21,293 nt of DNA from a virus, in the IMG/VR virus record IMGVR_UViG_3300035698_012178, positions 1-21,293 of that record; one strand, 5' to 3'. Positions 3,653-18,903 of the stretch are shown here, piece by piece. Position 1 is the first letter of the stretch; each line of letters begins with the position of its first letter. The translations under genes and the position numbers were made by a program. Under the pieces are notes generated by a model. The model searched no databases. It was not told where the DNA came from and saw only the letters and a program-made list of their open reading frames with translations.

Positions 3653-3892
3653 TTACCCCTCCACATCATCAACAGAAACAACAATTGCCGGTTTAATATT
3701 ACCAGATAAAATATTACTTATATCTGCGGCTTCTCCACAATGGCAAATCATCACATTAGGCACTAATGTAAAATTAACATTCGTTCCTTCCGCTACTGTT
3801 TTAACAGTAGGTACAGCCAAACGCAAAGGAAACTCATGTAAATCATTACACTTCTCATTAGGACATCTTACCTGAATTCTTTTTACTTTCAT
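3653..3892 (-). CDS. Small zinc-ribbon-like protein, first gene after an internal promoter
   Basis: This encodes 79 residues with an ATG at 3892, about 6 nt after a GGGGGT sequence; the stop is TAA. An N-terminal CPNEKC motif (C10 and C15) and a later CHC motif near residues 51-53 form a possible metal-binding ribbon, with a beta-rich stretch between them. It is the first gene downstream of the promoter at 3941-3913 and so heads the last transcription block in the window. No family is recognised and the function is unknown. Confidence 0.75.
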   Translation of the reverse strand: MKVKRIQVRCPNEKCNDLHEFPLRLAVPTVKTVAEGTNVNFTLVPNVMICHCGEAADISNILSGNIKPAIVVSVDDVEG

Positions 3893-8218: not shown

Positions 8219-8465
8219 TGATACTATCTCCTATTTCTCTTACAAACAAACCTTGTTCGCCAATATATTCAATTGCTCTTCCTAATATAAACCGGGTACC
8301 AAAAACACCTCTCCCTTTAAACACCGCAAAGGCATCTACCCAACTATAAGCCTCAATAATAGCATCTTGACTTATAATTTTTCGATGATCAATCATTCGT
8401 TTTGATGGTTTATAAGAAACACAATAAAACAATCTTAATTTAAATTTAACTTTTCCTTTTTTCAT
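8211..8465 (-). CDS. Small basic hypothetical protein
   Basis: The preferred start is the ATG at 8465, which overlaps the TGA of the upstream peptidase gene (ATGA) and lies about 9 nt after a GGGG sequence. An in-frame GTG at 8480 is less well placed. The 84-residue product is basic at its N-terminus, then has aromatic beta strands and a helix (residues ~33-48). No family is recognised. Its stop overlaps the recombinase start, so it is likely coexpressed with it. Confidence 0.65.
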   Translation of the reverse strand: MKKGKVKFKLRLFYCVSYKPSKRMIDHRKIISQDAIIEAYSWVDAFAVFKGRGVFGTRFILGRAIEYIGEQGLFVREIGDSIND

Positions 8466-8902
8466 TTTGGATAACCCCACTTAGCGACAGGATAACCAGA
8501 GCCTAGAATCTTATTACCAACACCAACATGAATCATTACCCAAAGTTCTCCCATTCTTTTAAACTCTTCTCTACCAACCCTATCAAATATTTTATCTGCT
8601 TCTTTCTCTAATTTATATGAGAAAACTTTTTTTACAACAATATCCAAAGCACACCCAAACACATGCTCGCTAATTCTCTCCCTTGATCTGCGAGACAATG
8701 TATTGTTATGCTTTAAGCACCTACAACCAGAAGTAACAGGTAAAGGAAATCCACACCAATTACGCAGCAACTCAAAATCATTTAACAAATGTACATTAAT
8801 AAAAGAATAACCACACCCACAAGAACATATAATCTCTCTTAAATAAAGATGTGGAGCAACTTTCGTTTTTACTAAATGAGTTGGTAATATTATACTAGAC
8901 AT
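8462..8902 (-). CDS. M15-type D-Ala-D-Ala peptidase-like protein
   Basis: The start chosen is the ATG at 8902, about 9 nt after an AAAGGA site; a longer frame to 8929 has no such site. The 146-residue product resembles phage M15 peptidases. It has an N-terminal region with CSCGCG, the TSGCRC.KHN segment (57-66), the zinc motif SEHxxGCALDI (H80, D87) and a late histidine in MIHVGVG (H125). Family members cleave peptidoglycan cross-links or terminal D-Ala-D-Ala. The late motif is HVG rather than the usual HVD, so activity is not certain. It lacks a signal peptide and lies in the replication block, unusual for a lysis enzyme. Confidence 0.7.
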   Translation of the reverse strand: MSSIILPTHLVKTKVAPHLYLREIICSCGCGYSFINVHLLNDFELLRNWCGFPLPVTSGCRCLKHNNTLSRRSRERISEHVFGCALDIVVKKVFSYKLEKEADKIFDRVGREEFKRMGELWVMIHVGVGNKILGSGYPVAKWGYPK

Positions 8903-9029
8903 TCTTTTTATCCTTTCTCTTAGGAGCAACTACAGCAATTATTGTTTTATTCATTGTATTAATCCATACTCTCATCCCTCCAAAGGAAACCCACTTCAAA
9001 ATACCTTTCCATTCTTTTACAGTTGACAT
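8895..9029 (-). CDS. Small basic hypothetical protein (44 aa)
   Basis: This frame runs from ATG 9029 to TAG 8895-8897, filling the gap between the thymidylate-synthase-like and peptidase genes. A GGGAAGG sequence precedes the ATG by about 8 nt. The product has two tryptophans in its first half, a short hydrophobic segment and a strongly basic tail (KRKDKK). The end overlaps the start of the peptidase gene by 8 nt. No homology is recognised; the good ribosome binding site and exact fit are the support. Confidence 0.55.
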   Translation of the reverse strand: MSTVKEWKGILKWVSFGGMRVWINTMNKTIIAVVAPKRKDKKNV

Positions 9030-9880: not shown

Positions 9881-10795
9881 TCAAAAAGGGATTTCATCCT
9901 CCTCATCATCATCATCTGTCTCTTCTACTTCATACCCTGCTTTTTTGGCGCACTCTTCCCAAATCTTACCATCACAATCTTCACACTCATCATTATCACT
10001 ATCGTAATCACCAAACTTCAGACCATGTTTGCATTTCCATTTCTTCTTTTTAGCTACAGTCTTATTCATCTTTTTCTTTTTGCGTTTAACTTCAGCTTCT
10101 ACATCCAATTCTTCATCATCCTCCTCATCTTCATCATCATCTTCGTCCTCCTCTTCGTCATCGTCCTCCTCTTCGTCATCGTCCTCCTCATCTTCATCAT
10201 CATCAATATTGTCCTCATCCTCCTCATCTTCTAGTTCGTACTTACTGCGACGATCATCATCGTCCTCATCTTCCTCCTCTTCTTCATTGCCCATCACTTT
10301 TCCAGAGAAAAACAATTCCTCAAGCTCATCATAATCTTTTTTCTCAAGGTACTTATCAAGCGGTATGGATTCCGCAAGCCACTCTTCCGGTATATCATAA
10401 TCCCTCTCTTCAAACCGGAATCCCTTATAACTCACATTTCCTTTACCTTTACTTGCATTACTAAAACAAACTGTCCTTCCTACTTTCTTTCGCGGATCAT
10501 CAAAATTTATAAAACCCCTGCCCCGACTCATCTTTGATATTTCCAGAAGATTTGTCTCACTAAAGAAATGTGCAATGTACCACACCCGCACACCCTTATT
10601 TTCCTCTTCTTTATTATCAAGGCATACTACCAAATAGGCACAGTAACGTTTTGCCTTAACCCGATCATGCCATTCCTCATCATAATCGTCTGTCTCACGG
10701 TAAGATGTAAGATACTCACAAATAGGACATGACTCACCATAATTCTTAGCAAGACACAAAACGTCATCCTGATTAGGCCCGATCTTCCGATGCAC
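9881..10795 (-). CDS. ssDNA-binding protein, C-terminal part after an in-frame amber codon
   Basis: This 305-codon stretch continues exactly in frame from the gene at 10796-11083, past one TAG, and reads VHRKIG at once. It contains the metal site of phage gp32-like SSBs (histidine 2, C14 and CPIC at 23-26). Next come the rest of the OB-fold-like core (to about residue 165) and an aspartate/glutamate tract (~170-235). A second ribbon (C255, H257, C271, C274) follows. It ends DEEDEIPF, very like the acidic IPF tip of bacterial SSB that recruits partner proteins. The GTG right after the TAG has no visible ribosome binding site, so independent initiation is doubtful. The full protein would be about 400 residues and should coat ssDNA for the polymerase, RecA and UvsY proteins. 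Confidence 0.78.
   Translation of the reverse strand: MHRKIGPNQDDVLCLAKNYGESCPICEYLTSYRETDDYDEEWHDRVKAKRYCAYLVVCLDNKEEENKGVRVWYIAHFFSETNLLEISKMSRGRGFINFDDPRKKVGRTVCFSNASKGKGNVSYKGFRFEERDYDIPEEWLAESIPLDKYLEKKDYDELEELFFSGKVMGNEEEEEDEDDDDRRSKYELEDEEDEDNIDDDEDEEDDDEEEDDDEEEDEDDDEDEEDDEELDVEAEVKRKKKKMNKTVAKKKKWKCKHGLKFGDYDSDNDECEDCDGKIWEECAKKAGYEVEETDDDDEEDEIPF
10109..10288 (-). repeat. Low-complexity trinucleotide tract encoding Asp/Glu in the SSB
   Basis: The plus strand is a run of TCC/TCT/ATC-type triplets, read on the minus strand as GAG, GAA and GAT codons. It encodes the acidic linker of the SSB. Several near-identical 9-15-nt units recur, making the tract prone to length change by slippage. 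The complementary strand shows poly-serine frames that are artefacts of this composition. Confidence 0.8.
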
Positions 10796-10798
10796 CTA
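10796..10798 (-). other. In-frame amber codon splitting the SSB gene
   Basis: On the minus strand the codons read CTT ATT TTG TAG GTG CAT CGG. The frame is unchanged on either side, and the residues on both sides match one continuous phage SSB domain, with the metal-site histidine two codons after the stop. A single base change from TAC, TAT, CAG or TGG would restore the gene. It may be a readthrough site, a nonsense mutation or a sequencing error. Confidence 0.85.
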
Positions 10799-11083
10799 CA
10801 AAATAAGAACGTGCATCTTTTTACCTTTCTCCACAGGCTTATCATAAATAAGTGGAGGCACTTTACCACTACTAAGCCAAGGAATAATTTCCATCTGGTG
10901 ATCGCCACCCTTAAAGAAAACATAGTCCAAAGGCATATTAATCTTCAATGGAGTTCTCCCACCACCAAAATCATCTTTTACCTTGTAAGATGATTCTACC
11001 GAATCCCCACCGGAATAAAGATCGCGTAATTTCTGACCTTTGCTAGTTTTCTTAGTCTTAGTTCCCTTTTTCTTCTTTGCCAT
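10796..11083 (-). CDS. ssDNA-binding protein, N-terminal part ending at an amber codon
   Basis: This encodes 95 residues with an ATG at 11083 after an AAGGAAG-type site at the end of the UvsY-like gene. It begins with a lysine-rich leader (MAKKKKGTKTKKT) and then a segment (about residues 50-95) that fits the first strands of the OB-like core of phage SSBs, ending HVLIL. It stops at TAG 10796-10798, but the same frame continues with the remainder of the domain (9881-10795). Alone it would lack the metal site and most of the DNA-binding fold and should not function. Position right after the UvsY-like gene supports the SSB assignment. It is probably the start of one gene. Confidence 0.78.
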   Translation of the reverse strand: MAKKKKGTKTKKTSKGQKLRDLYSGGDSVESSYKVKDDFGGGRTPLKINMPLDYVFFKGGDHQMEIIPWLSSGKVPPLIYDKPVEKGKKMHVLIL

Positions 11084-11602
11084 TTACTTCCTCCTCTTTC
11101 TTTTTTTAGAATTTCCTAAAAGATGATCTGGATCATCTTTTATTTTAGGTTTTGGAACTTTAGCAAAATAGTTCCCCATAAACAATTTCACTTCCTCACC
11201 GCACATACTCTTTCTCTGACCAAACGCTTCAAGAATCCCCCCTAACACACCTACCTTATAAGCCTGTTTTCTCTTGTTTCTTTTTGCTTCTACCACGTCT
11301 GGATGAATAGGTATAGCCGCTTTTACCGTTTGATCAGTTGTTTTGGGTAATTTAAACTTCTTAGGATTAGCCGCTATATCTAACAAAGCCTCAGCCTCAG
11401 TAAACACCAAATTATCTTTTAACTCTTCCAATTTATACTTAGCTTGAGCATACCGCTTAGACCACCTCTTATAAAGTTTAGGTTGCTCCTCACATTCATG
11501 ATGGAGATTATTTAAATCTATCTCCAATTGAGCCTCAGCTAAATTAGACAACTCAAGAATTGTAAGTTCTTCTTTGTTCTTCCTTTTCTTTTTCTTAGCC
11601 AC
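11084..11602 (-). CDS. uvsY: UvsY-like recombination mediator
   Basis: This encodes 172 residues starting at a GTG (11602), with a GGAG site fused to the upstream TAG, and ending at TAA. Basic tails flank a helical core. The order of features matches T4 UvsY: an LYKRWSKRY helix start (about residues 43-51), a long amphipathic helix, a segment around NPKKFKLPKTTDQTVKAAI, and a final pair of helices with ILEAFGQRKSM (about residues 122-132). Family members load the UvsX recombinase onto SSB-covered ssDNA. The adjacent SSB gene and the nearby RecA/UvsX gene fit that role. The match is by pattern, not alignment, so moderate confidence is appropriate. It is longer than T4 UvsY (137 aa), mainly from the basic ends. 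Confidence 0.62.
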   Translation of the reverse strand: MAKKKKRKNKEELTILELSNLAEAQLEIDLNNLHHECEEQPKLYKRWSKRYAQAKYKLEELKDNLVFTEAEALLDIAANPKKFKLPKTTDQTVKAAIPIHPDVVEAKRNKRKQAYKVGVLGGILEAFGQRKSMCGEEVKLFMGNYFAKVPKPKIKDDPDHLLGNSKKRKRRK

Positions 11603-11611
11603 ACTAATCTC

Positions 11612-11917
11612 CTAGAGCTTCACTATATCTTCACTTCGCCATTTTGTAGGATTTATTATAGAAGCATAATTAAACGTTACAAGCATTTTGTAAGCCAGTG
11701 TCATAATAATAATCACAGCTTTCAAAAAATCTATAGAACTTCCATGGTAATAACTGTACTTAGCTTTCTCCAACTGGTATTCTATGAATAATAAAAATCC
11801 CGGCTCACCGTGTAGTACATCATGCTCTGCTCCACCGTGTTTTAAATCCTGATAGTAACTCTCTAACTCCAAAATCCGCAACACATCTTCTTTTTCTAAA
11901 TTGTTTCTAATTGGCAT
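11612..11917 (-). CDS. Hypothetical protein, possibly MazG-like fold
   Basis: This encodes 101 residues with an ATG at 11917 following GGAG, and TAG at 11612. The protein is helical. It has an HGGAEHDVLHG segment (about residues 27-37), a FIEYQLEKA helix and a hydrophobic helix (FLKAVIIIMTLAYKML, 64-79). The HGG/HD pattern followed by a long helix resembles small phage relatives of nucleotide pyrophosphohydrolases, but the EExxE/ExxD metal motif is not clear. The function is therefore left open. It lies between clamp loader and UvsY-like genes. Confidence 0.7.
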   Translation of the reverse strand: MPIRNNLEKEDVLRILELESYYQDLKHGGAEHDVLHGEPGFLLFIEYQLEKAKYSYYHGSSIDFLKAVIIIMTLAYKMLVTFNYASIINPTKWRSEDIVKL

Positions 11918-13204: not shown

Positions 13205-15955
13205 CTAGGCTGCTACTTCTTTCATTTCATGCCAATTACCATTTACTTTTGAAATTTCAAACTCAACAGACATCGGCACTACAATAAAATCATTCTCTTC
13301 AGCTAAATCAACCGTCATAACCTTTGTCATATGAGCCATGACCTCTTCTCTTTCTTCAGGCACAAGATCAATTCCTATCTCATCATATATTTGAAAAGTC
13401 ATTTGTGACTCATGCTTCCATTCCTCATCCAATCTAATCATACCCCATAACAAACATAAAAATGCACTACCTTGAATCGGCGTATTAATAATTTGATTCT
13501 TAGTTAAAGCTCCACCGCGCCTTTGTCCAAATAAAGTTTCCACAAACCCATGTTCATTATAGAATACAATTTGCTCATTCTGATATTCTCTAAAAATTTG
13601 GTACTTATCCCAAAATTCTCTCTCCACTTCTCGACAATGTTCTATAAAAGAATTCCTTGTTTTAATCCCTTGATCCTTCAAATAATCCCTGATCACCTTG
13701 TTCTTTTCAATATAATCATACCAAATATTTCTAGCGCACGTTACAAAATAAGAACCATAAAATTGAGGAAATGTCCAACCATTCTTTGCACCGTGTCTTA
13801 AATTAATATGAAACTCTTCCTTAATCTCTTTTATATAAGATGCTTCCATTAAAAACAATTCTTCGGCCATATCCATGTGCATATCACCACCAGTTGTTAT
13901 GTAATCAATCAACACAGGATCACCACTACAACAAGCGGCTAAACAGACCTCTACACCACCATAATCACCTGTTAATAACATATTACCATGACTAGGTTTT
14001 ATCCCCTTCCTTATATAAGCCGCTTGCATTTCATCCCGTTTAGGCATGTTAGCAAAATTTGGAGCATCAGTACTTGGCCTATAAGTTCTAGTAGTATGGA
14101 GACTTGCGTTTGGATGCACCCGATCATCTTCTGATGCTTCCCTTAATATTTCATTTACCTTATCCTTCACCTTAATCAGCTTTTTCATTTCAATAAATTT
14201 GTTAGCAAAAGGACTATTAAACTCAAGCAATGCTGTCTCATCAAGTTTACGCTTTTTCTTAACAGTTTCACTCTTACTTTGATAACCTAAAATGTCAAAG
14301 AAAATTACTTTTTGATCTTGTGATGATCTTAAATTAGGAATTCTACCTTTTAATTTTATAAACTTCTTTATTGCTTTTGATTCTAAAAGTATATCTTTTA
14401 TTACTTTTATTTCTTTTTGTACAGTCACTAATGTTTCATCATAATACTCCCTATCTATTGGTATACCTCTCTCCTGAATATTAGCGAATACATCAGCCCC
14501 CCGCTTAATAAAACTATATGCTTTACGCTGTCCTTTATTTGACGAAAAAGTAAATTCAGTTCTTTGATTCTCATACAAACGATTTAATAAAACAACATCC
14601 CTTCCACAATACAAACCCAAATCCTGAAAATTAACTTTATGCAACCCATTTAAACCGTCAGTTCCACTTGGCCTTATGTACGGGGATACCCCCTCCTCAT
14701 ATCCTTCAATACCATATCGAATGTATGATTGAATCTTAAGGCCCGATACACCGGCAAATCCCCACTTTTCATCAACAATGTGGCTTGCACAATCTAAGAC
14801 ATAATTACCAAGCAATGTACAATAACCCCAATTAGCAGCTACTTTGAACACACCCCTTGTCCATTTATCTTCAAATAAAATATGATGCGCTATTGGCGAA
14901 TTATTAGATACCCCTTTTCTAAAATACTTATTAATCTTTTTCAATTTCGATTCATTATGATAGCCGGGATACTCATATGGAAAAACAACACACCCTTGCT
15001 CCTCAGTATAAAAACCCACACAATATATTTTAGCATTAAGAAAAAATGGAGATAGTCTATTAGTTTCGTAATCAACAAAAACTCTTCCTCTAAAATTAGC
15101 TAGTGTGTCTAATTCAAAAAGTATTTCCTCATAATCTGTTATCACCCTTATTTGATTATCAACACTCCTTAATAAATCATCCTGCTTTGTGTGCCCTTTA
15201 AACGGCCTACCATTCACTTCAATAAATTCTACAGCCTGTTTTACATCCCTTGCTAAACATGATCTAGCATTCTGATTGTAATTTAAAGAAGAGGGATGCA
15301 CCATAGGCATTACCCAAGCATTAGTATATAGATCAGGCATTACCAAACCTCTCCACCTATCTATTTTACTACTGCCTAAACGATTAGCATAAAAACTTGT
15401 GAATGCTGAAGCTCCTAACAACCACACAAATTCAGGATTTGCCTCTTCCAAACATTTATTTACGTAAGGTCTACAATAAGATATTTCTTGATTATTAGGA
15501 GTCCTATCATACTCAGGTCTGCAATTTATAGCATTAATTACATGAGCATCTTTATCTAAATCAAAATCATTTTCAGATAATATTTCTCTAAATACTTGTC
15601 CTTTATCTCCATCAAAATCTCCCGACCCCTCACCTTTTATAAATACTTTTCTCTCACCATCTCCGGCCAATGCTGATTGGGAATTACTAACTCCTGGCTC
15701 ATATCGAATATTGCACTTATGGCACAAAGGCTCTCCAGACACGCGCAATTCCGCTGAAACATCTTTACGCTTTGTTACTCTAGCAGTTCCTACTTGAGCC
15801 ATTTGAAGCTCTTCGGCTGTAAAAAATTCTTCAGGCATTTTTAAATCCCTATCACAAAATTGATCAACATCTAATTCATAATCTTTACAGGCTTCCCTAT
15901 CAGGATCACAACATGAAGGTTCTGCATACACAAATGAACACAATGATAACACCAC
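13205..15955 (-). CDS. polA: Family A DNA polymerase with N-terminal family-4 UDG-like domain
   Basis: This encodes 916 residues. Residues ~75-245 look like a family-4 uracil-DNA glycosylase: four cysteines at 78, 81, 145 and 161 fit an iron-sulfur cluster, GEGSG is at 108-112 and HPS at 220-222. The family's acidic residues after GExPG are altered, so glycosylase activity is uncertain. A DEDDy exonuclease follows (D295/E297, D363, Y449/D453). The polymerase domain has motif A DYGGVE (664-669), motif B R720/K724/YG (733-734), NTPIQGS (824-830) and motif C YDE (857-859). Motif C has tyrosine where HDE is usual. The start is GTG at 15955 with GGGAG upstream; a second GTG lies at 15952. A cysteine-rich N-terminal extension of ~70 residues is unexplained. 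SPO1-type phage polymerases have a comparable fusion. Confidence 0.92.
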   Translation of the reverse strand: MVLSLCSFVYAEPSCCDPDREACKDYELDVDQFCDRDLKMPEEFFTAEELQMAQVGTARVTKRKDVSAELRVSGEPLCHKCNIRYEPGVSNSQSALAGDGERKVFIKGEGSGDFDGDKGQVFREILSENDFDLDKDAHVINAINCRPEYDRTPNNQEISYCRPYVNKCLEEANPEFVWLLGASAFTSFYANRLGSSKIDRWRGLVMPDLYTNAWVMPMVHPSSLNYNQNARSCLARDVKQAVEFIEVNGRPFKGHTKQDDLLRSVDNQIRVITDYEEILFELDTLANFRGRVFVDYETNRLSPFFLNAKIYCVGFYTEEQGCVVFPYEYPGYHNESKLKKINKYFRKGVSNNSPIAHHILFEDKWTRGVFKVAANWGYCTLLGNYVLDCASHIVDEKWGFAGVSGLKIQSYIRYGIEGYEEGVSPYIRPSGTDGLNGLHKVNFQDLGLYCGRDVVLLNRLYENQRTEFTFSSNKGQRKAYSFIKRGADVFANIQERGIPIDREYYDETLVTVQKEIKVIKDILLESKAIKKFIKLKGRIPNLRSSQDQKVIFFDILGYQSKSETVKKKRKLDETALLEFNSPFANKFIEMKKLIKVKDKVNEILREASEDDRVHPNASLHTTRTYRPSTDAPNFANMPKRDEMQAAYIRKGIKPSHGNMLLTGDYGGVEVCLAACCSGDPVLIDYITTGGDMHMDMAEELFLMEASYIKEIKEEFHINLRHGAKNGWTFPQFYGSYFVTCARNIWYDYIEKNKVIRDYLKDQGIKTRNSFIEHCREVEREFWDKYQIFREYQNEQIVFYNEHGFVETLFGQRRGGALTKNQIINTPIQGSAFLCLLWGMIRLDEEWKHESQMTFQIYDEIGIDLVPEEREEVMAHMTKVMTVDLAEENDFIVVPMSVEFEISKVNGNWHEMKEVAA

Positions 15956-15973: not shown

Positions 15974-17026
15974 TCAATCTATCCTCACTTTCTGAGCCAT
16001 AATATGTGTAAAATTCTTTGTACTAAACTCAAGTTTACTAGCTCCAATCACCGTCATCTTCATAGCGCCTTTTTCCAACACCTGAGAAAAGAAAGCCGGA
16101 TTAATAAGAAACTCTACGGGATCACCGGCATAATCTATGTCAATATTACGCTCAATCTCACCTGTGCTTTTCTCTGCTTTACAAAATATTTCCCCATCAA
16201 ATATCTTAATCTCAATACCTGTCCTTGTCACCTTATCAGGCCCATCTGTCATAACCTCAACCGAATCAATAACGTCTTTTATATTTGAAGGTAATATAAA
16301 TGTTTCCCCCTCTGCTCCAAAATGCTTTTCACAATCCAAAAACTCACCAGAAAAAACCCTTACTGAAAATATACCACCTTCCTTAGTTTTAAAATGCGCC
16401 CACGATCCATCAGTACTATAATACTGAATATCAGCTTTTACTAATTCATCAACATATTTTGCCGGGATAAGAAGATTGTCTTCCATCTTTAATTTCATTT
16501 TATAACGACTAACCCGCGTCCTATCCGTTGAATATATTTTATTACCAACAACGTAAACACAAACTAATGTTCCTGAATTAATATCTTTAGACGCTGAAAA
16601 CTGACACAACTTTAAACCCTCTCTAAAATTAGATGGTAGTATCTTCCACTCATCTATTTTATGAACCTTAAGTTTCTTCCATTCTTTTTCAATCTTAGGA
16701 TTCTGAGTTGATTTAGACTGTGCTTCAGACAAAGGCTTCAAACTCACTTTAGATGACACACTTTTAATATTGATCTTTGTTTTAAATACTTCTATTTCAA
16801 TAAACTTTTCCGGAAGCTTTATTAATATCTTGTACAGATCAGAAGCTTTAACAGAAAACTCTCCCAATCCAACAAAAGAAATGAATATTGAAATGTCATC
16901 ATTATAAGTATAAATCCCCTTTTTAGTAAAAACAAAATGGCTTGTTTGCTCTCTGGGATCACTGGTTGTCAATCCCGGTCTAATTACTTCCAATGCGCTT
17001 ATTAACTCTTCTCTCAATACCTTCAA
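15974..17026 (-). CDS. dnaN: DnaN-like sliding clamp
   Basis: This encodes 350 residues with three-domain DNA clamp features: an N-terminal helix-strand start (LREELISALEVI), repeated beta-alpha-beta units, a central STDRTRVSRYKM segment (168-179) typical of bacterial-type clamps ('atDghRl'), and a C-terminal strand. The ring would encircle DNA and tether the polymerase encoded directly downstream, loaded by the ATPase at 11920-12858. The start is TTG at 17026, about 7 nt after a GGGGGGAG site, and overlaps the end of the radical SAM gene by 47 nt; the stop is TGA. It is somewhat shorter than the ~366 residues usual for bacterial DnaN. Confidence 0.88.
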   Translation of the reverse strand: MKVLREELISALEVIRPGLTTSDPREQTSHFVFTKKGIYTYNDDISIFISFVGLGEFSVKASDLYKILIKLPEKFIEIEVFKTKINIKSVSSKVSLKPLSEAQSKSTQNPKIEKEWKKLKVHKIDEWKILPSNFREGLKLCQFSASKDINSGTLVCVYVVGNKIYSTDRTRVSRYKMKLKMEDNLLIPAKYVDELVKADIQYYSTDGSWAHFKTKEGGIFSVRVFSGEFLDCEKHFGAEGETFILPSNIKDVIDSVEVMTDGPDKVTRTGIEIKIFDGEIFCKAEKSTGEIERNIDIDYAGDPVEFLINPAFFSQVLEKGAMKMTVIGASKLEFSTKNFTHIMAQKVRID

Positions 17027-17933
17027 TATCTTCTCCCCCCATACTGTAACCCTTGATTTTACAAAATTGATATAACGTTGAATTTCTTATATAATGACCA
17101 TTGGCCCAATCCCTTAGTACCCTTTGTTTAAAATCCTTAGCATCATAAGACATTACATAAGGATCAATGTTATATGTCCTTTGTAATACCAACAGTCTAT
17201 AAATATCTTCCTCAAGTGTAGAATTAAAACCAACTAAGACAAAGAATTGAAACATTCTTGGCCCCATATATTTTAACAAAGTATCTATGCCTTTTCTTAC
17301 TTTATCCTCATCTTTTACATTATCCCAAGCAAACCTAATTTGCTTAAATCGTTTTACCTGTTTCAATAAAGAAGCTTGCCACATCTTAATTAAACGGATG
17401 TCCAACCCTTGTGAAAAATCCACACTTAATTCATTCTCAATTAAAAATATAAGCACTTCTGCAAAATGATTATTTGGAGCGGCTGTTAAATTATTATCTA
17501 ATAACACAACTCTCTTTTGTCCTCTCCAAAAAGATTCTACACTACTCACCACATGAATCTTTCCCTCTTTCTCAGGCACAACACAAAACTCACAATTTCT
17601 AACACAACCCCTTGTAGTAAATCCCATTGCGTAACCGGAATAAACACCTTGATAAAGACCATAATCAGGACATAATTTTTCTATATTCTCAGGCAACCGT
17701 GTCTTTAAAGAATAACCGGAACCACCTCTTACAACTTCCACATTGTCATCAATAGTATAATCAAAATCTGAAGTCGAAGAAAATACTTTGCTTATATAAA
17801 CCTTATCATAAGTACCGAATGAATTACACCAATTTACAAAATCACCTTTGATTTTGTGGTAAGCTGATAACTTCATTAAGGCTAAGTTAGGCCATTTTGA
17901 ATCAACATCTATTAAGCCGATTTTCTTTCCCAT
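16980..17933 (-). CDS. Radical SAM protein with N-terminal B12-binding-like domain
   Basis: The start chosen is the ATG at 17933 after GGGGGTT; an upstream extension to 17990 would run through the terminator. The 317-residue protein begins with a Rossmann-like segment (IGLIDVDSKWPNLALMKLS, 5-23) and continues into a CxxxCxxC cluster (C110, C114, C117) preceded by TTRG. This is the iron-sulfur motif of radical SAM enzymes. The later region fits half of a TIM barrel (LLDNNLTA, VDFSQGLDIRL). Such enzymes act through a 5'-deoxyadenosyl radical; the substrate cannot be told. Similar proteins are common in large phages, usually as unknowns. It stops at TAG, 47 nt inside the clamp gene. Confidence 0.82.
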   Translation of the reverse strand: MGKKIGLIDVDSKWPNLALMKLSAYHKIKGDFVNWCNSFGTYDKVYISKVFSSTSDFDYTIDDNVEVVRGGSGYSLKTRLPENIEKLCPDYGLYQGVYSGYAMGFTTRGCVRNCEFCVVPEKEGKIHVVSSVESFWRGQKRVVLLDNNLTAAPNNHFAEVLIFLIENELSVDFSQGLDIRLIKMWQASLLKQVKRFKQIRFAWDNVKDEDKVRKGIDTLLKYMGPRMFQFFVLVGFNSTLEEDIYRLLVLQRTYNIDPYVMSYDAKDFKQRVLRDWANGHYIRNSTLYQFCKIKGYSMGGEDIEGIERRVNKRIGSN

Positions 17934-17945
17934 TACAACCCCCAA

Positions 17946-17981
17946 GAAAGTATAAAAAGGAGGCGGTTCCCCGCCTCCTTT
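17946..17981 (-). terminator. Intrinsic terminator after the acidic/basic protein gene
   Basis: On the minus strand AAAGGAGGCGG (17981-17971) is followed by GGAA and CCGCCTCCTTT (17966-17956), then TTATACTTT. This is an 11-bp GC-rich hairpin with a tetraloop and a T-rich tail, 26 nt after the TAA of the gene at 18007. It separates that gene from the radical SAM-clamp-polymerase operon. Confidence 0.88.
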
Positions 17982-18006
17982 ACATCTCACAACTAATCAG
18001 CTTAAT

Positions 18007-18903
18007 TTACTTCTTTTTCTTTTTCTCGATCTTCAACATGTCTTGCTCAATCAGAATAGTTACAACATCCTGACAACGCTTGCAACGAACCTTTGTGTAC
18101 TGTGCCTGAGTATCGTAACCGGCCTTCTCTAATTTCGTATGAATAGCTTCTACATTAGGATTCTTTCCCTTTAAAATGTAGGGAAGAGCCAATTCATAAG
18201 TGCGGACATCAGCCGACTTGTCAGCCTTTTTCTTTGTGGCTTTCTTTGTCGTCTTTACTGCTTTCTTTGTAGCTTTCTTTGTGGCCTTTTCCTTTGTAGA
18301 CTTCTTTACCGTTTTCTTTGCTGCCTTTTTATTACTTTTCTTTTTAGCCACTTCTTTTCCTCCTTTTTTATTCTTTTTGAGTTTCTCCTCTTCCTCCTCC
18401 TCTTCCTCTTCTTCGTCCTCCTCTTCCTCTTCCTCTTCCTCTTCCTCTTCTTCGTCCTCCTCCTCTTCCTCTTCCTCTTCCTCTTCTTCGTCCTCCTCCT
18501 CTTCTTCGTCCTCCTCCTCTTCTTCGTCCTCCTCTTCCTCTTCCTCTTCGTCCTCCTCTTCCTCTTCGTCCTCCTCTTCCTCTTCCTCTTCTTCACGTTC
18601 GGGACGTGCCTTTACATCAGGTTTAATTTTTATCTTCTGAGCCGCTTCCTCCGCTCTAGCATTAGCGTTATAGAAATCCGTAATCTCATCGGACAACTCA
18701 TTAAACTCCTCATCGGTCAATGTGTTATTCATAAACTCCATAAATTCAGCATACAACTTCTTAGGATCGGTTGCCTCAAAAACCTTATCAGTTTCATCCT
18801 CCAACATAGTTACAACTTCATACAGCTTAGAAGCAATAACCGTAAATTCCTTAGCTTTCTTTGTTCCTTTCTTCTTTGATCCCTTTTTCTTTGCTTTTGC
18901 CAC
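18007..18903 (-). CDS. Acidic/basic low-complexity protein, histone-H1-like middle region
   Basis: This encodes 298 residues starting at GTG 18903 after AGGAGG. A lysine-rich leader is followed by a helical region (21-95). Next is an almost pure Glu/Asp run (about 102-174), then a Lys/Ala/Thr tract with KKATKKAVKTTKKA-type repeats (175-230). A globular C-terminus carries CKRC near residue 278 and a KKKKK tail. The basic tract resembles histone H1 tails and bacterial H1-like proteins that bind DNA. The acidic run could act as a DNA mimic or chaperone-like segment. It has its own strong promoter, leader hairpin and terminator, suggesting high, independent expression. No named family is recognised; a role in DNA packaging or nucleoid control is inference only. 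Confidence 0.85.
   Translation of the reverse strand: MAKAKKKGSKKKGTKKAKEFTVIASKLYEVVTMLEDETDKVFEATDPKKLYAEFMEFMNNTLTDEEFNELSDEITDFYNANARAEEAAQKIKIKPDVKARPEREEEEEEEEDEEEEEDEEEEEEEDEEEEEDEEEEEDEEEEEEEEEEEDEEEEEEEEEEEEDEEEEEEEEEEKLKKNKKGGKEVAKKKSNKKAAKKTVKKSTKEKATKKATKKAVKTTKKATKKKADKSADVRTYELALPYILKGKNPNVEAIHTKLEKAGYDTQAQYTKVRCKRCQDVVTILIEQDMLKIEKKKKK
18381..18596 (-). repeat. GAA/GAG trinucleotide tract encoding polyglutamate
   Basis: About 216 nt of almost pure CTC/TTC/TCC triplets on the plus strand encode the Glu/Asp run of the protein at 18007-18903. The pattern CCTCTTCCTCTT with occasional TCG or GTC interruptions repeats many times, so length variation by slippage is likely. It explains the spurious poly-serine and poly-arginine frames here. 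Confidence 0.88.

Follow-up and report, generated by a model that had tools for sequence, protein, structure and literature searches.

An in-frame amber codon in the gp32-like single-stranded DNA-binding protein gene of an environmental virus, probably a single-base nonsense lesion

How should a stop codon be read when it stands inside the conserved domain of an otherwise intact phage replication gene? The question is raised by a virus contig from a metagenome, IMG/VR record IMGVR_UViG_3300035698_012178. The window analysed here is the whole record of 21,293 bases, which is classed among linear records, often fragments. A replication cluster on its minus strand contains genes for a sliding clamp, a uracil-DNA glycosylase-polymerase A fusion, a clamp loader, a UvsY-like protein and a single-stranded DNA-binding protein (SSB). 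The same cluster also includes a thymidylate synthase-like gene, a UvsX-like recombinase and gp47/gp46-like proteins, the naming of the latter two resting partly on position and on synteny with MAR10. In the polymerase (13205-15955, minus strand) the N-terminal uracil-DNA glycosylase superfamily domain covers residues 114-232 (E 3.5e-14), and a peptidase M15-like protein (8462-8929, minus strand; PF08291, E 8.8e-7) is encoded inside the cluster. Two further minus-strand genes encode a radical SAM protein (16980-17990; phrog_9298, E 1e-82), which is related to proteins of Bacteroides phages and, more remotely, to proteins of Methanomassiliicoccales viruses, and a 298-aa protein (18007-18903) with Lys-rich ends, a long Glu/Asp run and no family match.

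The SSB gene (9881-11083, minus strand) starts with an ATG at 11083, behind an AGGAGG Shine-Dalgarno sequence at 11090-11095 on the same strand, and ends with a TGA at 9881-9883. The sole break in the frame is a TAG at codon 96 (10796-10798, minus strand), and the frame does not change at the interruption. If the amber is read through, the gene has 400 codons, a delimitation to which translation, structural model, profile and PHROG matches all contribute. The first 95 codons (10799-11083) specify a Lys-rich N-terminus and the first OB-fold strands, and the 304 sense codons after the amber (9884-10795) the metal site, the remainder of the core, an acidic tail, a Cys motif and an IPF tip. A TAG at this place with the frame unchanged had been described in a sequence-only reading of the same DNA, and the minus strand confirms it. 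Beyond the stops of the 30 other open reading frames (ORFs) of the window, the frame stays open for at most 175 codons; in that case the TAG of the ORF at 11612-11917 is followed by the UvsY-like gene, which has its own GTG and Shine-Dalgarno sequence. Because the frame past the SSB amber is so much longer and holds the remainder of a conserved domain, it is not a product of chance.

By sequence and structural model, the interrupted gene encodes a gp32-like SSB, with predicted binding of single-stranded DNA. An AlphaFold model of the read-through protein, built from a 48-sequence alignment, is confident over a core of approximately residues 41-260 (block means 81-98, with a mean pLDDT above 90 across most of the core). 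Significant Foldseek matches to it were gp32 structures only (six chains, the best being RB69/T4 gp32, E 1.6e-7), and the gp32 core fold is recognisable in the model. By sequence, a profile of 11 relatives matches gp32 in the PDB (E 0.009) and family members match the SSB family phrog_1192, while the full-length window SSB was not named directly by Pfam and PHROGs searches. The protein also has a His-Cys-Cys-Cys metal site with gp32-like spacing. The first ligand, H98 (10790-10792, minus strand), and the remaining ligands C110, C119 and C122 (10718-10756, minus strand) are invariant in the 48 sequences, and His occupies the H98 position in 141 of 145 relatives. Two further statements of the sequence-only reading are borne out by these results: both sides of the TAG belong to one gp32-like SSB, the read-through model matching gp32 and the conserved domain spanning the stop, and the stop lies two codons before the metal-site histidine. 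In the model, codon 96 falls within a confident beta-strand (residues 93-101), and a 95-residue product would comprise only the first part of the OB fold, with all metal ligands absent.

Relatives were gathered by clamp-loader and SSB profile scans, which yielded 172 loci with an SSB and 145 distinct sequences. None of the 145 has a stop at the codon-96 column, nor had any of an earlier first set of 81. The column holds Trp in 46 sequences, Tyr in 33, Phe in 22, Arg in 12, Lys in 10 and other residues in 22, with TGG (46), TAT (17) and TAC (16) among the codons used. The four nearest relatives by identity (L135, L149, L150 and L090) all have TGG, and Trp is dominant among the closest sequences. 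Alignment with homologues, which had been proposed as a check on which residue replaces the TAG, thus returned Trp, Tyr or Phe. TAG is one substitution away from TGG (Trp) and from TAT/TAC (Tyr), and the ancestral codon 96 was most likely aromatic (Trp or Tyr). In a tree computed without the codon-96 column the window falls near a Phe/Trp clade (support 94/96) on a branch of length 1.6, and owing to this long branch the exact ancestral residue is unsure. No close relative was found in viral contigs by single-protein scans with SSB, polymerase and UvsX or by an exact degenerate motif spanning the codon, so codon 96 could not be compared with that of a near-identical virus. Together, the collected relatives outline a broad, largely unnamed family of gp32-like SSBs in environmental phages.

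The GTG that lies immediately 3' of the amber codon suggests that the locus could comprise two genes, with termination at the UAG, re-initiation at the adjacent GUG and assembly of the two chains. Termination-reinitiation is known in operons. However, this GTG has no Shine-Dalgarno sequence before or after the TAG, unlike the neighbouring genes, which have theirs, and the earlier remark that it lacks a ribosome binding site stands. Moreover, a scan covering the SSB core found no homologue with the SSB as two separate genes in the 172 loci, and in the model the cut would fall inside strand 93-101. A functional split gene is extremely unlikely.

Programmed readthrough, in which a leaky UAG would determine how much full-length SSB is made relative to a 95-aa fragment, had likewise been proposed, and a frame open for 304 codons past the stop speaks for it. 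Against it, the stop is conserved in 0 of 145 relatives, and shuffled versions of the RNA past the stop fold at least as well as the original (z +0.67 and +1.50, pseudoknots lying outside the folding model). A stimulating downstream RNA element was rejected on these scores. With its end within a strand, the short product would by the model amount to half an OB fold, and the proposal of two programmed products finds support on none of these three counts. Both readthrough and a split gene are poorly supported, as every feature that could be tested came out absent, and we regard programmed readthrough as very unlikely.

Whether TAG serves as a sense codon in this phage can be judged from its use elsewhere in the window. 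It ends 7 of the 30 other ORFs, and five of these stops run into the Shine-Dalgarno sequence that precedes the following gene (e.g. TAGGAGG), so that TAG is not avoided as a stop; the interior count is a single TAG in ∼6,600 codons. Given this ordinary usage, a change of the whole-genome code was rejected, and decoding of TAG throughout the phage, another option put forward earlier, is contradicted. No tRNA gene was detected in the 21,293 bases of this likely fragment. Twelve relatives' records were also searched, and the tRNA genes present in four of them include none with a CUA anticodon. Recoding in TAG-decoding phages is concentrated in late genes, and no structural genes were recognised in the record, so late-gene recoding could occur elsewhere in the genome.

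Decoding of the amber by a suppressor tRNA, encoded either by the host or by phage sequence outside the record, would give full-length SSB from a gene that is intact past the TAG. The record is a 21 kb linear fragment compared with relatives' records of 60-112 kb; efficiencies of up to 70% of wild type are given for amber suppressors (PMC8954436), and phages that decode amber exist (PMC10607447). On the other side stand the tRNA searches, the ordinary TAG stops and the finding that Gln, the residue inserted by TAG-decoding phages, occupies the codon-96 column in only 1 of 145 relatives. Suppressor decoding is unlikely, but it is the only rival with an appreciable probability, because the host and the remaining phage genome lie beyond the record. 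Its stronger form, in which the amber is decoded in the natural host by a suppressor tRNA from either source, and phage replication would depend on the decoding state because the essential SSB could be produced only in cells that read UAG, is a little less probable still. With the amber decoded, an essential replication protein would be switched by a single codon. A different amber-reading scheme, insertion of pyrrolysine in a pyrrolysine-using host, could point to the 10 of 145 relatives with Lys at the column and to the distant relatives of the radical SAM gene in viruses of the Methanomassiliicoccales, an order that uses pyrrolysine. Yet most relatives have aromatic residues at the site, the radical SAM gene is nearer to those of Bacteroides phages and the replication proteins are of bacteriophage type, which makes the probability of this scheme close to negligible.

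The identity of the window SSB to its relatives is as other genes predict, with residuals of +0.061 (clamp loader), +0.006 (UvsX) and +0.002 (polymerase) against a residual spread of 0.06-0.08, and gene decay or accelerated divergence was rejected, the SSB gene having diverged no further than its neighbours. After the amber, every invariant residue, the C-terminal Cys motif and the terminal tip are kept. Residuals and intact C-terminus together imply that the lesion is recent, artefactual or suppressed.

The C-terminal part bears features of its own. The Cys motif C-x2-G...C-x2-C...W-x2-C (9950-10033, minus strand) is related to a motif in many relatives; the strict pattern CPxGxxFGxDxd...CxxCxxWxxC occurs in 37 of 81, and the window form differs from it by two residues. 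In this SSB family the motif lies beyond the gp32 core. The acidic tip DDDDEEDEIPF (9884-9916, minus strand) resembles the tip of bacterial SSB, given as DDDIPF in a passage of PMC5872125. Among the relatives, one (L060) ends in DDDIPF and one (L038) in DDDIPY, and others end differently. The IPF tip may be a borrowed docking tip for host proteins on a gp32-type protein.

The frequency with which similar interruptions arise was estimated from homologues. In the genes of the window, 5.6% of random substitutions yield a stop. In 130,494 aligned residues from homologues of nine window proteins there were six stops, which, judged by eye from their positions, look like overruns of gene ends or junctions and not like interruptions. 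Stops in polymerase alignments were at alignment ends or apparent gene junctions, again by eye, and were left uncounted. Of 156 SSB relatives that are complete, one (L214) is interrupted, by a lone in-frame TAG. This TAG, at 3691-3693 on the plus strand of its record, lies in a Lys/Ser-rich linker. It is followed by 115 in-frame codons ending with the conserved Cys motif, and no tRNA was found in the 7.5 kb record; a case of this kind fits sporadic interruptions at a low background rate. Other genes and whole SSB genes combined, the background of interior stops is one (that in L214) in ∼170,000 codons, and ∼0.04 interruptions are expected per window of 6,582 codons, a rough figure, since the loci overlap and are related. 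At this rough rate, one lesion is unusual for a single window but expected across a scan of many.

We therefore turn to the explanation that we favour: the locus is probably a gp32-like phage SSB gene of the ordinary kind with a nonsense lesion of one base, either a null allele or a base error. One reading frame is interrupted by one stop, the codon is a sense codon in all relatives and the gene is otherwise intact, its remainder undecayed; from this we infer that the lesion is recent or artefactual instead of decoded. The amber is most likely a single-base mutation or a sequencing error, not a new decoding trick, and a single nonsense substitution is the simplest account, given how often random substitutions create a stop. 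Translated as it stands, the gene would yield 95 residues, with termination within the OB fold and ahead of the metal site, and no functional SSB would be made. The assembled copy could represent a null allele that is rare or recent; such an allele could persist through co-infection, in dead particles or where the phage population is mixed. Alternatively, the TAG could be a consensus or damage error in the metagenomic assembly. Two considerations count against a lesion: selection would act against a true null allele, since SSB should be essential, and at the low background rate no particular window would be predicted to carry a lesion. Of the options listed in the sequence-only reading, null mutation and base-call error are thus the ones favoured, and programmed readthrough and phage-wide decoding are not. 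For annotation, one interrupted SSB should be called, not two hypothetical proteins; as a lesion, the amber carries little weight beyond that.

Compared with known systems, the closest structural counterpart is RB69/T4 gp32, which has the core fold in common with the window SSB (TM-score to target 0.66) at ∼13-17% identity in the structural alignment. The metal ligands of T4 gp32 are His64, Cys77, Cys87 and Cys90 (PMC10862658), with a spacing close to that of H98, C110, C119 and C122. The acidic C-terminal part is likewise shared, as is the context of a gene adjoining a UvsY-like mediator with a UvsX-like recombinase near, whereas the extra C-terminal Cys motif, the IPF tip and the interrupting amber set the window SSB apart. 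Edwardsiella phage ZHS (ZHS_54) and the Vibrio Mardecaviruses MAR10 (MAR10_073) and SSP002 (SSP002_072) have SSBs 24-27% identical to that of the window and the same order of clamp, polymerase, clamp loader, UvsY-like gene, SSB and RecA/UvsX, but each of these SSBs is encoded by one unbroken gene, with Tyr or His at the codon-96 position. An in-frame TAG inside a phage gene is also found in phAss-1 (PMC10607447) and crAss-like phages (PMC9523058). However, in phAss-1 as many as 41 ORFs contain TAG, and three CUA suppressor tRNAs are present (PMC10607447), compared with one TAG, no tRNA and normal TAG stops in the window, a difference that counts against suppressor decoding here. Sporadic in-frame stops are widespread, short-lived and enriched in phages and transposons, and sequencing error is one of their four sources (Belinky et al. 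2021, PMC7918605). Persistence and selection are not measurable from the single copy of the window gene, unlike in that set, but the gene resembles those prokaryotic and mobile-element cases in having a lone in-frame stop with the remainder intact.
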